NCBI GenBank assembly: GCA_018668695.1
Contig: JABJBS010000327.1
Span: 1-36,960 of the forward strand
Source: Deltaproteobacteria bacterium
Lineage (GTDB): Bacteria > Myxococcota > XYA12-FULL-58-9 > JABJBS01
Reading direction: 5' to 3'
Length of the DNA stretch: 36,960 nucleotides
Positions within the stretch are counted from its first letter, which is position 1. The number at the start of each line of letters is the position of its first letter. A program made the translations under genes and the position numbers. Of this stretch, positions 12,465 through 16,862 are shown one piece after another. The notes beneath the pieces were generated by a model. That model did no database searches. It was not told where the DNA came from and was given only the letters and a program-made list of their open reading frames with translations.

Positions 12465-12551
12465 GACCAAGTGTATTCCATTCTGGCTCCAACCTCCCCG
12501 ATTCCGCTATGCTTAGAACCAAGCAACAACGTTTACCAGGGAATTCAGGAT

Positions 12552-13001
12552 ATGCGGGAAGTTGTTATCTCCGAGACGACACGTCAGGTAATTATGCGAA
12601 TGGTCCGCGAGGTCTATTTCATGAACGCACTCGAAGATGCCGAGGTTGAGCTCATTTTGGGTGCGCTCAAGCTCATGGGATACAACGAAGGCGAGACCAT
12701 CATTAAAGAGGGTTCTGAGGGCAACAGCTTTTATATCATCCTCGAGGGAGACGTTCGGGTCGTAGTCGGCAAAAAGTTTCTACGCTCTGGTAAAGAAGTT
12801 GCCCGGCTTGGTCCTGGTGATTTTTTTGGAGAGACCGCCCTGGTTTCAAATCAACCACGTAATGCCACGGTGATTTGTGACGGTACTGTTCGAGCCGTAA
12901 AACTTGAGCGTTCCGCGTTTGAAAGCTTAAAAAGTAGTAATGATAATTTCAGTAAAGCGATGGATCACATCGCAGAGCATCGTCAGCTCAAAACGAGTTA
13001 G
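12552..13001 (+). CDS. Single-domain cyclic-nucleotide-binding protein
   Basis: This is a stand-alone cNMP-binding (CAP_ED) domain of 149 residues with no HTH or kinase attached. Visible features are the beta-barrel EGETIIKEGSEGNSFYIILEGDVRVV and the phosphate-binding cassette FFGETALVSNQPRNATV, with the key Glu and Arg that contact the ribose and cyclic phosphate. It should bind cAMP or cGMP and act through a partner. I chose the ATG at 12552, preceded by AGGGA at about 11 nt; a GTG at 12471 would add 27 residues with no domain character. Regulatory-subunit-like single domains of this type are common in Myxococcota (established for the lineage in general; assignment here is inferred). Confidence 0.87.
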   Translation: MREVVISETTRQVIMRMVREVYFMNALEDAEVELILGALKLMGYNEGETIIKEGSEGNSFYIILEGDVRVVVGKKFLRSGKEVARLGPGDFFGETALVSNQPRNATVICDGTVRAVKLERSAFESLKSSNDNFSKAMDHIAEHRQLKTS

Positions 13002-13072: not shown

Positions 13073-13161
13073 TGGTGCCGCCTCCCGGAATCGAACCGGG
13101 ACGGGAGTTTAAGCCCGACGGATTTTAAGTCCGTTGTGTCTACCAGTTCCACCAAGGCGGC
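13073..13161 (-). tRNA. tRNA-Leu (anticodon UAA)
   Basis: On the minus strand the gene begins GCCGCCTTGGTGG and ends AGGCGGCACCA. The acceptor stem GCCGCCT pairs with AGGCGGC, the T-arm reads CCGGTTCGATTCCGG, and a long class II variable arm is present. The anticodon loop GGACTTAAAATCC places UAA at the centre, giving Leu. The terminal CCA is encoded (13073-13075 on the plus strand). It is 89 nt long, typical for tRNA-Leu. Confidence 0.97.
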
Positions 13162-13266: not shown

Positions 13267-13716
13267 TTAAATGAAAGGCTTGGAATCTGTTGACAGATTA
13301 ACGGGAGCCACTTCTTCTATTGGTTGGGCCTCAACGACCTCTGGACTTGCTTCAGTACCAATTTCTACGGGTGCCGGTACGGCTGCCGCGACAGGAGTCG
13401 CTGCTGCAGGGACCGCCGCTAAAGGTACTTCTTCAACGTCAGACTCTACTGGAGCAGATTTTGCCCAAAATGGAGGCTGCGCGTAAACAGGAACTCCATC
13501 GTCAGTAGTCTGAACAGTCTCATCTACACGTGGCAGCTGCTTCTTACGAGGCAGACTCACGTCTTGAGGTTGTTCCTGTGGTTTGGGTTCCTCTTGCACT
13601 GAAATAGCATCAATGATCAGAGACCCGACCCAATCGCTCATTTTGAGACCGCGAGATTTACAATAAACCTTCGCTAGCGCGTGGGCGTCATTCGATAAGT
13701 GCACGACCTTTGACAC
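13267..13716 (-). CDS. Ribbon-helix-helix-like protein with a Pro/Ala-rich tail
   Basis: I start this gene at a GTG at 13716, because GGAGGT lies 7 nt upstream; the ATG-like start at 13767 lacks such a site. The product is 149 residues. The first 40 residues (SKVVHLSNDAHALAKVYCKSRGLKMSDWVGSLI) have the strand-helix-helix pattern of small RHH DNA-binding proteins. The rest is disordered: Gln/Pro/Glu-rich then Ala/Pro/Val-rich (A-A-V-P-A-A-A-T-P-V-A-A style), ending in Asp/Ser. Such architecture fits a nucleoid-, partition- or scaffold-associated protein, but no specific role can be assigned. It precedes tRNA-Leu on the same strand. Confidence 0.65.
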   Translation of the reverse strand: MSKVVHLSNDAHALAKVYCKSRGLKMSDWVGSLIIDAISVQEEPKPQEQPQDVSLPRKKQLPRVDETVQTTDDGVPVYAQPPFWAKSAPVESDVEEVPLAAVPAAATPVAAAVPAPVEIGTEASPEVVEAQPIEEVAPVNLSTDSKPFI

Positions 13717-13831
13717 TGCAGTTACCTCCGTGGATTTAAGTACCGCTCGAGATTCTAGGCTCAACAAGAGCTAGATGTTTATCCCTAGTTGCCACCAACA
13801 TTCAACCATAAGCGACGCTTATAATCATGTG

Positions 13832-14270
13832 GATGCAATTAAAGCAGGAAGCCAGCTACCATAGACCACCGCATGTGACCAGAGCTCAGACTCAATTACT
13901 CAATGGTTTTGGGTGTGTGCAAAAGCGAAAATCAGCACACCAAACAATCCAACGAAATTTGGGGGGTATGATTATTAATCACTCGGGAGATTGTTTGATG
14001 CGCTGGGGGGGAAACTCGAATTGGTTGACGGCAGGAGTCTTCGGGAAACGATAACACATGCGGGTACGCGCTAAGTTCTCAAGCCGAAATTGGCCTTTGA
14101 ACTATGTATCACCTGCTCTTTTAAGGTTTCCTGCCAGACCATCCGGCAGTGCCCATTGAAACCAAAATTAAGCTCCCGACGACTCTCCGTCCGTCAGCAA
14201 GCGCGATTGGGAAGGTCATCCGTATGCCCGGGGGGACTCACGTTTCGTTCACAGCTTCGCGCTTGCTACT
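13832..14270 (+). other. Gene-free region with several strong inverted repeats; possible structured RNA
   Basis: From 13717 to 14458 no gene is convincing. A perfect TATAAT lies at 13820-13825, without a good -35. Downstream are nested or adjacent stems: GTGTGC/GCACAC (13915-13920 with 13935-13940), CAAACAATC/GATTGTTTG (13941-13949 with 13989-13997), TGATTA-T-TAATCA (about 13969-13981), GGTTTC-CTGCC with GGCAG...GAAACC (14125-14163), and an 11-bp perfect pair AGCAAGCGCGA/TCGCGCTTGCT (14196-14206 with 14257-14267). It matches none of tmRNA, RNase P RNA, SRP RNA, or tRNA-Sec by their hallmark motifs. Strand is a guess from the TATAAT. Confidence 0.35.
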
Positions 14271-14458
14271 AGTGATTGCACGGTGTGTGCCAAAGTGAAG
14301 AAAAACAATCTTATATAGTAAAAAGTAAGTAAATTCAGGATCTTAACAAATTTAGGCGCTCAACGGCCAAAACCGATCGCCAACGTACAAGTTCGGCGCT
14401 GAGAACAAAATTAACCTACAAGGTTCGTGATTTCGAACTTGACGGTGAAGGCCTCTGT

Positions 14459-15697
14459 ATGAGGGAATCCACCATAATGACGAAGCAAAAAACCCTCCCA
14501 AAATTTGCCCATGTAATTGACGAGGTTTGCGGAACTTTAGGGGTTGTCGGGGACGACCTCTTAGCCCATCTCCAACGCGAGATACCTTCGAAAATACTGT
14601 TTAGACGTGCCCAAGACGTCGTCCTGCTCTCAGGCCATACAGGGACCGGTAAAGAGGTTGTTGCCTCTACCTGTCACCATGTAGCCAAAAAGGGATTAGG
14701 ACGTACTGGAGAGCTCGTTGAAGTCAACTGCGCCAACTTGGGCGGCGGTGTCTTCGAGAGCCAACTCTTTGGCTACAAAAAAGGTGCATTTACCGGCGCT
14801 GACCGTGATTTTGCGGGCCTCGTGGGCCGTGCAGGAGGCGGAACACTGGTCCTCGATGAGATCCAGTCTCTTGAGCCACAAGACCAGGCAAGATTACTTC
14901 GCTTTTTAGGCGAGCGAGAATACCGCTCAGTGGGCGATGACAAAGTTCGCTCGAGCGATGCACTCATTATTCTGTCGACCAACCGAGACCTATCCGAAAT
15001 GGTTGGAAATGGTGAGTTTCGCCGTGACCTTATGGATCGTGCACCGGCGAAAATCTACATCCCATCGCTCTACGAGCGGCGCAGAGATATCGGGCAACTG
15101 GCGCAAAGCTTTGCCATGCAGGTTTCAAAAGACATGGGCATGGAAGATGAGTTCTTCGGTTTTACGAGACGCGCCCGAGCCGATATCGAAACCGCTATTA
15201 TTCGTTCGAACGAAGTGAGTATTAGACGTTTACGCGAAGTGATTCGCAACGCCGTATTCTCAGCTGCCGTTGAAGAGATGCCAGAAGCGCTCGACAGCGA
15301 CTGGATGCTGCCCATCCTCGAGAGAGAATTTACATTCTCCATCGCGGACCGAGATGCACAAGACCAAGACGAACTAGACCGCGAATTTGATATGTTGGTT
15401 GCTCGAACCAAGCTCAAAGAAGTCGCAGCACATCATCATGTAAGCCCGCAATCATTGAACAAATTGGTCGCGGCAGTGCACAGCCTCATTGACGATATGG
15501 ATAACCCCAATCGGACGTATCGCAACATCACGGAGCGGACCCATAGGCTCTCTAAAGTCGCGTTATGGCTGGTTTCTGGGGCTGAAACCCAGGCTCAGTT
15601 CAGACGCTACTTCGGCAAACACAACTCAGAGATGCCGACCAAGAGCGTTGCACACCAGATTTATTACGAAGTGTTTCCGAAGGAGCGTAGGGGATGA
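14459..15697 (+). CDS. Sigma-54-type AAA+ ATPase without sensor or clear Fis-type domain
   Basis: The product (412 residues) carries the central domain of sigma-54 activators, which use ATP hydrolysis to open the promoter complex. Walker A is GHTGTGKE (59-66), the sigma-54-contacting loop is GAFTGA (109-114), Walker B is TLVLDEIQ (129-136), and an Arg-finger region RRDLMDR lies at 188-194. Sensor II-like IRRLREVIRN follows at about 255-264. There is no N-terminal receiver, FHA, GAF or PAS domain. The C-terminus contains only a weak helix-turn-helix-like KLKEVAAHHHVSPQSLNKLV. The start may be the ATG at 14459 or 14477; both have purine-rich upstream sites. It overlaps the next gene by 4 nt (ATGA). 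Confidence 0.9.
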   Translation: MRESTIMTKQKTLPKFAHVIDEVCGTLGVVGDDLLAHLQREIPSKILFRRAQDVVLLSGHTGTGKEVVASTCHHVAKKGLGRTGELVEVNCANLGGGVFESQLFGYKKGAFTGADRDFAGLVGRAGGGTLVLDEIQSLEPQDQARLLRFLGEREYRSVGDDKVRSSDALIILSTNRDLSEMVGNGEFRRDLMDRAPAKIYIPSLYERRRDIGQLAQSFAMQVSKDMGMEDEFFGFTRRARADIETAIIRSNEVSIRRLREVIRNAVFSAAVEEMPEALDSDWMLPILEREFTFSIADRDAQDQDELDREFDMLVARTKLKEVAAHHHVSPQSLNKLVAAVHSLIDDMDNPNRTYRNITERTHRLSKVALWLVSGAETQAQFRRYFGKHNSEMPTKSVAHQIYYEVFPKERRG

Positions 15698-16476
15698 ACG
15701 CCGCCGCGAGCCATACGGTTGTAGAGTCAGAATTGGCTTATGACCTCTTGCAAGACCACACCGAACTGGTATTAGCTCTACTAGAGCGCCCAATGCCCAA
15801 GGGTGAAGTCATAGAGATGCTCGGGACCGAAACTCCTTTGAAGCGTCTTCTAAAGCATGGGCTTGTTTCCCAGGAAGGCAATACCATTTACGCCGTCGCC
15901 GAAGCCTACACACAGGCCCGGCAAGAAGGCATGGTAACATTTCTAGAACGATATATTCTGCCATCGCTTAGCGCGAGCCTATCCGTAGGTTCTGATGTCG
16001 ACCCCGGTGGCATTGCAAATGTGTGGTCAGTTCCTCTGAAACTTTCACCGAAAGAATTAGATACTGTCCGCCCAGATAATATTGATGAATTTTTTGATGA
16101 ACTTTTGAAAGCCAGTGATTTACCCGCCCAGGGAATACTGTCACGCCTAAGCGTTTTGGTTATCGGCACCTCGAGAGAGATTGATAGCGAAATTTCAAAA
16201 GAAGATGCAATTCTTAAGCAGTTAAAGTGTGCTTCCATTCAGCGCTCAACTGCCGACGAAAAGCATTTAGCGATTTTATCGCAATTTGATTGTCTAGCAG
16301 ACAGCGGACGGTTTGAAGCAGCCCGAGATGTTGTGCAGAAGCTAGTCGATAACGTGGATGTTCAAAGAGCAACCACGCCCAGTGAAGCAAATTACCACCT
16401 AACCGTGGCCACCCATTGGCGATGTACCGCCGCCAGTGGACTGGATAACGAGGTGGAAGCGAGTCAGTTATGTTGA
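15694..16476 (+). CDS. Unknown protein with possible N-terminal winged helix, partner of the ATPase
   Basis: This 260-residue protein begins at an ATG overlapping the upstream TGA (ATGA), so it is translationally coupled to the sigma-54-type ATPase. Residues about 18-70 (LLQDHTELVLALLERPMPKGEVIEMLGTETPLKRLLKHGLVSQEGNTIYAV) have the helix-helix-turn-helix-wing pattern of winged-helix DNA-binding domains. The rest is helical with no recognised family; residues 190-250 may be a TPR-like helical repeat. I infer that it could supply DNA binding or signal input that the ATPase lacks. It shares the operon with the tagged secreted protein at 16470, which it overlaps by 7 nt. Confidence 0.65.
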   Translation: MNAAASHTVVESELAYDLLQDHTELVLALLERPMPKGEVIEMLGTETPLKRLLKHGLVSQEGNTIYAVAEAYTQARQEGMVTFLERYILPSLSASLSVGSDVDPGGIANVWSVPLKLSPKELDTVRPDNIDEFFDELLKASDLPAQGILSRLSVLVIGTSREIDSEISKEDAILKQLKCASIQRSTADEKHLAILSQFDCLADSGRFEAARDVVQKLVDNVDVQRATTPSEANYHLTVATHWRCTAASGLDNEVEASQLC

Positions 16477-16862
16477 AGAAAAAAGTAGTAAATCTTATTC
16501 TCGTAATCGGTATGGGCCTAGTTCTTGGTCTCATGCCTGCCATGGCAGCCGCAGGTGGAATTATCACCCACGGTCGCATGACTTCTGAGAATGGACTTGA
16601 ACAAGAAGACGATGAGCAATCAGACGATGATGGTCTCAGCGAAACTCAAATTAAGAATCAACTGTATCTACTGGTATCGATGATTCTAAATGGACATGAG
16701 AGTTTTGCCACCACAAGTGAAGATGCTGAAGATAACGGCAGCACCTTGGCAGCATCGCCTGACGATGACACCGAAGCCGGTGGATGCCAGCAGTTTCCTG
16801 TATCTTCTCTTACGAGCCTATTGGGATTCGCGTGGCTCATGAGATTACGCCGACGCCGTTAA
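16470..16862 (+). CDS. Small acidic secreted protein with MYXO-CTERM-like C-terminal tag
   Basis: This 130-residue protein has a signal peptide (KKK then a hydrophobic run to AMA-AAGG, cleavage near 26-28). The mature part is strongly acidic (EQEDDEQSDDDG, SPDDDTE). The C-terminus has a Gly-Gly-Cys at 104-106, a hydrophobic segment at about 108-124 and an R-L-RRRR end. This order (Cys-containing motif, membrane segment, Arg cluster) is that of C-terminal sorting tags such as MYXO-CTERM, although the Cys motif is not the standard one. I infer surface anchoring after processing. It overlaps the previous gene, so it is the last gene of a three-gene operon, followed by a strong terminator. Confidence 0.75.
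   Translation: MLKKKVVNLILVIGMGLVLGLMPAMAAAGGIITHGRMTSENGLEQEDDEQSDDDGLSETQIKNQLYLLVSMILNGHESFATTSEDAEDNGSTLAASPDDDTEAGGCQQFPVSSLTSLLGFAWLMRLRRRR

Follow-up and report, generated by a model that had tools for sequence, protein, structure and literature searches.

A trio of overlapping genes from a myxobacterium-like genome raises the question of whether a sigma-54 activator can be divided between an ATPase motor and a separately encoded partner, and of what such an activator might have to do with the cell envelope. The window, by which we mean the whole stretch of DNA analyzed, comprises positions 1 to 36,960 of contig JABJBS010000327.1, forward strand (Deltaproteobacteria bacterium; Myxococcota; XYA12-FULL-58-9; JABJBS01; assembly GCA_018668695.1). 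The genes lie on its plus strand at 14459-15697 (ATPase), 15694-16476 (partner) and 16470-16862 (a small exported protein). A preliminary description had placed three overlapping genes at 14459-16862; its coordinates are correct, as are both overlaps, which are 4 nt (ATGA) between the ATPase and partner genes and 7 nt between the partner and third genes. It had also proposed that the activator is split between the first two, an idea we consider possible.

When 195 genomes of the phylum were searched with profiles, six, drawn from three families, had the trio with order and coupling kept. Four are among the eight genomes of the window's order: the window's own (G000), G004, G006, and G007, where the trio is spread across two contig ends. 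The other two, G187 and G188, belong to a distant family; there too the ATPase gene is followed by that of the partner and then by that of a small MYXO-CTERM-like protein, and the overlaps are 1–4 nt. The ATPase and partner genes are adjacent and overlap by 1–4 nt in all six, and the third position is always taken by an exported MYXO-CTERM-like product. Absence of the trio from relatives, which the preliminary description had named as evidence against its reading, is thus refuted, and because orthologous trios occur in five other genomes the trio does not reflect chance. Strong matches to the C-terminal domain of the ATPase and to the partner are found in these same six genomes of the 195, and only together.

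Identity to the window proteins is 45–61% for the ATPase, 24–41% for the partner and, where computed, 26–31% for the third protein. The neighboring genes vary: folK and dapB flank the trio in G000, G006 and G007, ExbB/ExbD-like genes lie 3' of it in G004 and G007, and a giant metalloprotease gene adjoins it in G187 and G188. Since the order is kept down to 24% partner identity and with differing flanks, the trio travels or persists as a unit. No relative of the ATPase was found on plasmids.

The first gene encodes a 412-aa AAA+ ATPase of the sigma-54-activator type (14459-15697, plus strand; PF00158, Sigma54_activat, E 7.3e-44). Translation likely starts at the ATG at 14477, giving 406 aa; we favor this start because GAGGG lies 14 nt upstream of it, in sequence that the ATG at 14459 overlaps. 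Orthologues are 56–61% identical within the order and 45–47% in the distant family. Walker A (GHTGTGKE, residues 59-66, 14633-14656, plus strand) is largely invariant across the six orthologues, and the alignment also supports Walker B (LVLDE, residues 130-134, 14846-14860, plus strand). The GAFTGA loop that contacts sigma-54 (residues 109-114, 14783-14800, plus strand) is GAYTGA in two orthologues. All catalytic and sigma-54-contact motifs are intact in the six. EVSIRRLREVI replaces the usual PWPGNVREL, and the sensor-2 arginine is kept. The sigma-54 gene rpoN is present in the window's genome and in the other trio-bearing genomes of the order. Of the features expected of a sigma-54 enhancer-binding protein (bEBP), the window protein thus has the AAA+ core with Walker A and B and the GAFTGA loop, and rpoN lies in the same genome.

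About 50 residues precede the AAA+ core, and they match no N-terminal sensor or regulatory domain. Profile matches in the PDB (ZraR, PspF, NtrC1) are all confined to the AAA+ part. The best NCBIfam match is to the AAA region of RtcR (E 1.5e-54); it spans residues 50-272, again only the AAA+ part, and at 185.8 bits falls far below the equivalog cut-off of 650. The preliminary description had read the three motifs and the missing sensor correctly. However, its term 'minimal' was too strong, as the protein continues past the core into a conserved domain of 138 aa.

This C-terminal domain (residues 275-412, 15281-15694, plus strand) aligns across the six orthologues and carries the motifs SYRN, KxALWLxSGA and EMPxKSVAxQIY. 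It is lineage-specific: the six trio genomes match its profile with E of 2.7e-59 or lower, and the next best of the 195 genomes has E 0.006. The domain is not of the Fis/HTH_8 type, in agreement with the earlier reading that no clear Fis-type DNA-binding domain is present. Pfam gave no HTH_8 or Fis match in the C-terminus, and hhalign against true bEBP C-termini gave a probability of 1%, compared with 99% when those C-termini were aligned with one another as a positive control; one family member was kept out of the template set, as its inclusion produced an artefactual 99%. A full C-terminal HTH, which the preliminary description had named as the contrary finding, is therefore not seen in its Fis form, but a weak HTH-like segment is present (KLKEVAAHHHVSPQSLNKL, 15416-15472, plus strand). 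Weak Pfam HTH matches cluster at residues about 318-340 (E 0.1–0.2; PF13542 at E 0.13 and PF01527 at E 0.16, with HTH_26 at E 0.11 in another family member), and the only profile alignment to a Fis-type HTH, which is non-significant, falls on the same segment. Much of the invariant sequence of the domain follows it. Given the conserved domain and this segment, the ATPase may itself bind DNA. PDB profile searches with the C-terminal domain or the partner returned only chance matches (ATP synthase b, designed helical proteins), and single-sequence structure models (pLDDT 49 for the C-terminal part of the ATPase, 37 for the partner) were too poor for use.

The partner (15694-16476, plus strand) is a 260-aa protein with a weak winged-helix-like pattern at its N-terminus followed by a second domain. 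The window protein has no match in Pfam, and strong matches to the partner profile are limited to the six trio genomes. The preliminary description had seen a winged-helix-like start. We find this to be weak: the first 75 residues fit the fold by eye, most clearly in G188, and one of five homologues has a single weak match to SelB-wing_2 (E 0.05). Weak matches to the partner profile in Myxococcaceae were rejected as orthologues, since they proved to be the C-terminal end of a long protein that resembles acyltransferases.

The third gene (16470-16862, plus strand) encodes a small, acidic protein that is exported and ends in a MYXO-CTERM-like tag; an acidic secreted protein with a C-terminal sorting tag had been proposed. 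In the six homologues a signal peptide precedes a mature N-terminus that is conserved as AGG(I/V)I-x-x-GR; an acidic stretch of variable sequence, a GC motif, a hydrophobic stretch and terminal arginines follow. In the window protein the stretch GGIITHGR...EAGG contains 19 D/E against 2 K/R, and the tag consists of GGC, a hydrophobic stretch and RLRRRR. The MYXO-CTERM architecture (cysteine motif, transmembrane stretch, arginine-rich end, signal peptide) is thus found in the sequences of all six, and the models for it match homologues below threshold (TIGR03901, E 0.004; TIGR03382, E 0.04). For the window protein, the only match is to the tail of a MYXO-CTERM-anchored family (E 0.018). Proteins of this kind are exported via the type II system and cleaved by myxosortase (PMC11980579).

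Conserved non-coding blocks, identified with blastn, separate the ATPase gene from a divergent gene (13267-13767, minus strand; likely start near 13713) that also precedes the trio in G004, G006 and G007. Its product has a ribbon-helix-helix-like N-terminus (SKVVHLS..AH..AK..C...L.MSDWV) and a conserved end (GVPVYAxPPFW), and has no significant match in Pfam. The block nearest the trio is a promoter-proximal inverted repeat, AGGTTCGTGATTTCGAACTTGACGG (14421-14445, plus strand), with the core GTTCG-N6-CGAAC at 14423-14438. In each of the order's four trio genomes it lies directly 5' of the ATPase gene, with two copies in G007, and the exact core occurs 0–4 times per genome.

A second of these blocks, on the minus strand at 14023-14198, had gone unmentioned in the preliminary description. 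It is a Y-shaped structured RNA built around a three-way junction, either a gene of its own or a leader, and is supported by folds and a covariance model. The other copies are at L024:9638-9797 (+), L025:7549-7694 (+) and L026:1738-1896 (+), and the divergent gene begins 190–310 nt downstream. All four copies form a closing stem and two arms, P2 and P3, mostly capped by UGG triloops. The bulge on the 5' side of P2 reads A(A/U)UGGGCA in three copies and UGGGCA in the remaining one, and the 3' side of P3 contains a conserved GUACCC segment.

The folds are unusually stable (z-score -6.7 for the window and -4.4, -5.2 and -7.5 for the homologues), with no shuffle equally stable. A covariance model built from G007 alone recovers the copies in G004 (E 2e-8), G006 (E 2e-4) and the window (E 4e-4). 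In the resulting alignment both partners differ at 41 of 60 pairs, against 18 ± 3 in shuffles, and 91% of cells pair, against 44–51% when slid; because the alignment was fitted to the structure, these counts are biased in its favor, but the folds, which are independent of it, give the same picture. The four-sequence model finds one match in each of the four trio genomes of the order and none in the order's other four. Outside the order it gave one weak match, in G051 (E 3e-4, 104 nt), and no copy was found near the trio in G187 or G188. The co-occurrence of RNA and trio within the order could reflect simple linkage. With no plausible match in Rfam and strong covariation, the RNA is a candidate for a new structured RNA family. 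Two other identities were rejected: 6S RNA is located elsewhere in the window's genome, G004 and G007, and the plus-strand reading folds 6–22 kcal/mol worse in all four copies.

A sigma-54-like -24/-12 site, TGGCACACACCGTGCA (14277-14292, minus strand; score 17.5/19), lies upstream of the RNA in the window. In both the window (shuffle frequency 0.001) and G006 (0.003), the distance from such a site to the RNA, on the strand of the RNA, is 84–94 nt. None was found upstream of the RNA in G004 or G007, so that two of the four loci have a convincing site.

Three further features of this region were observed. A 22-nt block, TTGATCAGGGGTCCGACAGATC, lies between the RNA and the ribbon-helix-helix-like gene in L024, L025 and L026 (family f5) and is absent from the window; it is a possible promoter or operator. 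A tRNA gene adjoins the divergent gene as part of the conserved synteny (13076-13161, minus strand, in the window; L026:2443-2527 (+)), and window positions 12471-13001 (plus strand) encode a protein with a single cyclic-nucleotide-binding domain (PF00027, E 3e-21) and no output domain.

Considered together, the trio and the nearby RNA suggest a specialized switch for the cell envelope. In our preferred reading, to which we give about an even chance from the sequence data, the trio is a lineage-specific regulatory module in which a sigma-54 activator is controlled in trans by its partner and serves the envelope. The sequence describes a motor of the sigma-54 enhancer-binding-protein type without a sensor of its own. 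From the strict pairing and the translational coupling we infer that the co-translated partner would bind the ATPase, probably at the unusual C-terminal domain, and gate or aim it; a winged helix could make contact with DNA or with the ATPase. The motor would then open sigma-54 promoters, possibly including that of the RNA, which in the order genomes is a candidate target, with a sigma-54-like promoter at two of four loci. The exported third protein would link the switch to the envelope, its surface-anchored form being either the output of the switch or an envelope-side signal. A tie of this kind would be in keeping with sigma-54 in general, which is associated with the bacterial exterior (PMC3162934).

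The division of labor first proposed, with DNA binding moved to the partner, is only partly supported. The trio is a real conserved unit, with constant pairing of ATPase and partner, their coupling and an exported third product; however, the ATPase is not truncated and the winged helix of the partner is weak. In its full form, a coupled motor with a new adaptor domain and a winged-helix partner that targets DNA, together driving the Y-shaped RNA and the surface protein, we judge it unlikely. A more credible competitor, though still one we would place behind an even chance, is that the activator is whole: a non-Fis HTH in the ATPase would bind DNA, and the partner would do no more than inhibit the ATPase or sense a signal, in the way that PspA acts on PspF and HrpV on HrpS. 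The conserved 138-aa domain with its HTH-like segment (VSPQSLNKL), on which several weak Pfam matches and the sole Fis alignment converge, favors this reading. However, every one of these matches is non-significant, and the best-conserved part (SYRN...ALWLxSGA...MPxKSVAxQIY) lies outside the segment and resembles a protein-contact surface.

The ATPase might instead work from solution without binding DNA, like FlgR, CtcC and FleT, and the partner might have nothing to do with the motor and instead bind DNA to repress the operon. There is precedent for bEBPs without a DNA-binding domain, FleT lacking both ends (PMC7175178, PMC3162934), and the conserved inverted repeat directly 5' of the ATPase gene would suit whatever regulator controls the locus as an operator. 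We think this improbable, since the ATPase is not truncated after its AAA+ core and the strict co-occurrence of C-terminal domain and partner argues for a direct link. Least probable, with only a slim chance, is a bEBP descendant that has lost its sigma-54 function and whose remodeling activity is directed at the envelope or at the Y-shaped RNA. TyrR and DhaR are bEBP homologues that do not contact sigma-54 (PMC3162934), and both the GAYTGA of two orthologues and the ExbB/ExbD-like genes 3' of the trio in two genomes could be read in this way. However, all six proteins keep the loop, the change from F to Y occurs in the functional TouR (PMC3162934), and rpoN accompanies the trio in the order.

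Control of the motor in trans by its partner, the reading we prefer, would place the locus within a known kind of system, the sensorless bEBP, to which the pairing of C-terminal domain and partner and a candidate RNA family would be added. PspF and HrpR/HrpS, the group IV bEBPs, likewise have an AAA+ core with GAFTGA and no N-terminal regulatory domain, and are controlled in trans by proteins (PMC7175178), as is proposed here. However, they end in an HTH, whereas the window ATPase ends in a lineage-specific domain and has its partner in an overlapping gene. FleT of Cereibacter sphaeroides lacks canonical regulatory and DNA-binding domains and forms a hetero-oligomer with another protein (PMC7175178, PMC11999139). 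The window ATPase resembles it in lacking an N-terminal regulatory domain. It has no HTH_8 match but does have the weak HTH-like segment, and it has an additional C-terminal domain; the partner of FleT, FleQ, is itself a bEBP, whereas the partner here is not an AAA+ protein. The similarity to RtcR is limited to the AAA+ part, the N-terminal region of RtcR being absent.

In Myxococcus xanthus, a sigma-54 promoter is predicted for the Pxr sRNA, which adjoins an NtrC-like gene (PMC5684412), an arrangement comparable to that of the window. However, Pxr consists of three stem-loops, and PxrR belongs to the response regulators and has a kinase, whereas the RNA described here has a Y-shaped three-way junction and is divergent from the ATPase gene. 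The third protein has the same signal peptide, cysteine-containing GC motif, transmembrane stretch and arginine-rich end as MYXO-CTERM surface proteins such as TraA (PMC11980579), but its mature part is very short and its gene belongs to the operon of a sigma-54 activator.

In almost every sigma-54 activator described, the DNA-binding domain is part of the same chain, and FleT is the only one that a review lists without either end domain (PMC7175178). A further means of aiming or gating sigma-54 machines would be represented by a motor whose C-terminal domain is of a different kind and which always occurs with a partner outside the AAA+ proteins. The fixed exported third gene connects sigma-54 control to the cell surface in a way that can be tested.

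Several observations concern the genes beside the trio. In both distant-family genomes (L060, L061) the adjoining metalloprotease is lipoprotein-like, about 1600 aa long and has an HExxH-type motif; L060 contains two copies of its gene, which flank the trio. The ExbB/ExbD-like genes form ExbB-ExbD-ExbD-like operons directly 3' of the trio at L024:5036-6697 (-) and L027:5481-7149 (-). The window's own genome encodes only distant ExbB relatives, which are located elsewhere.
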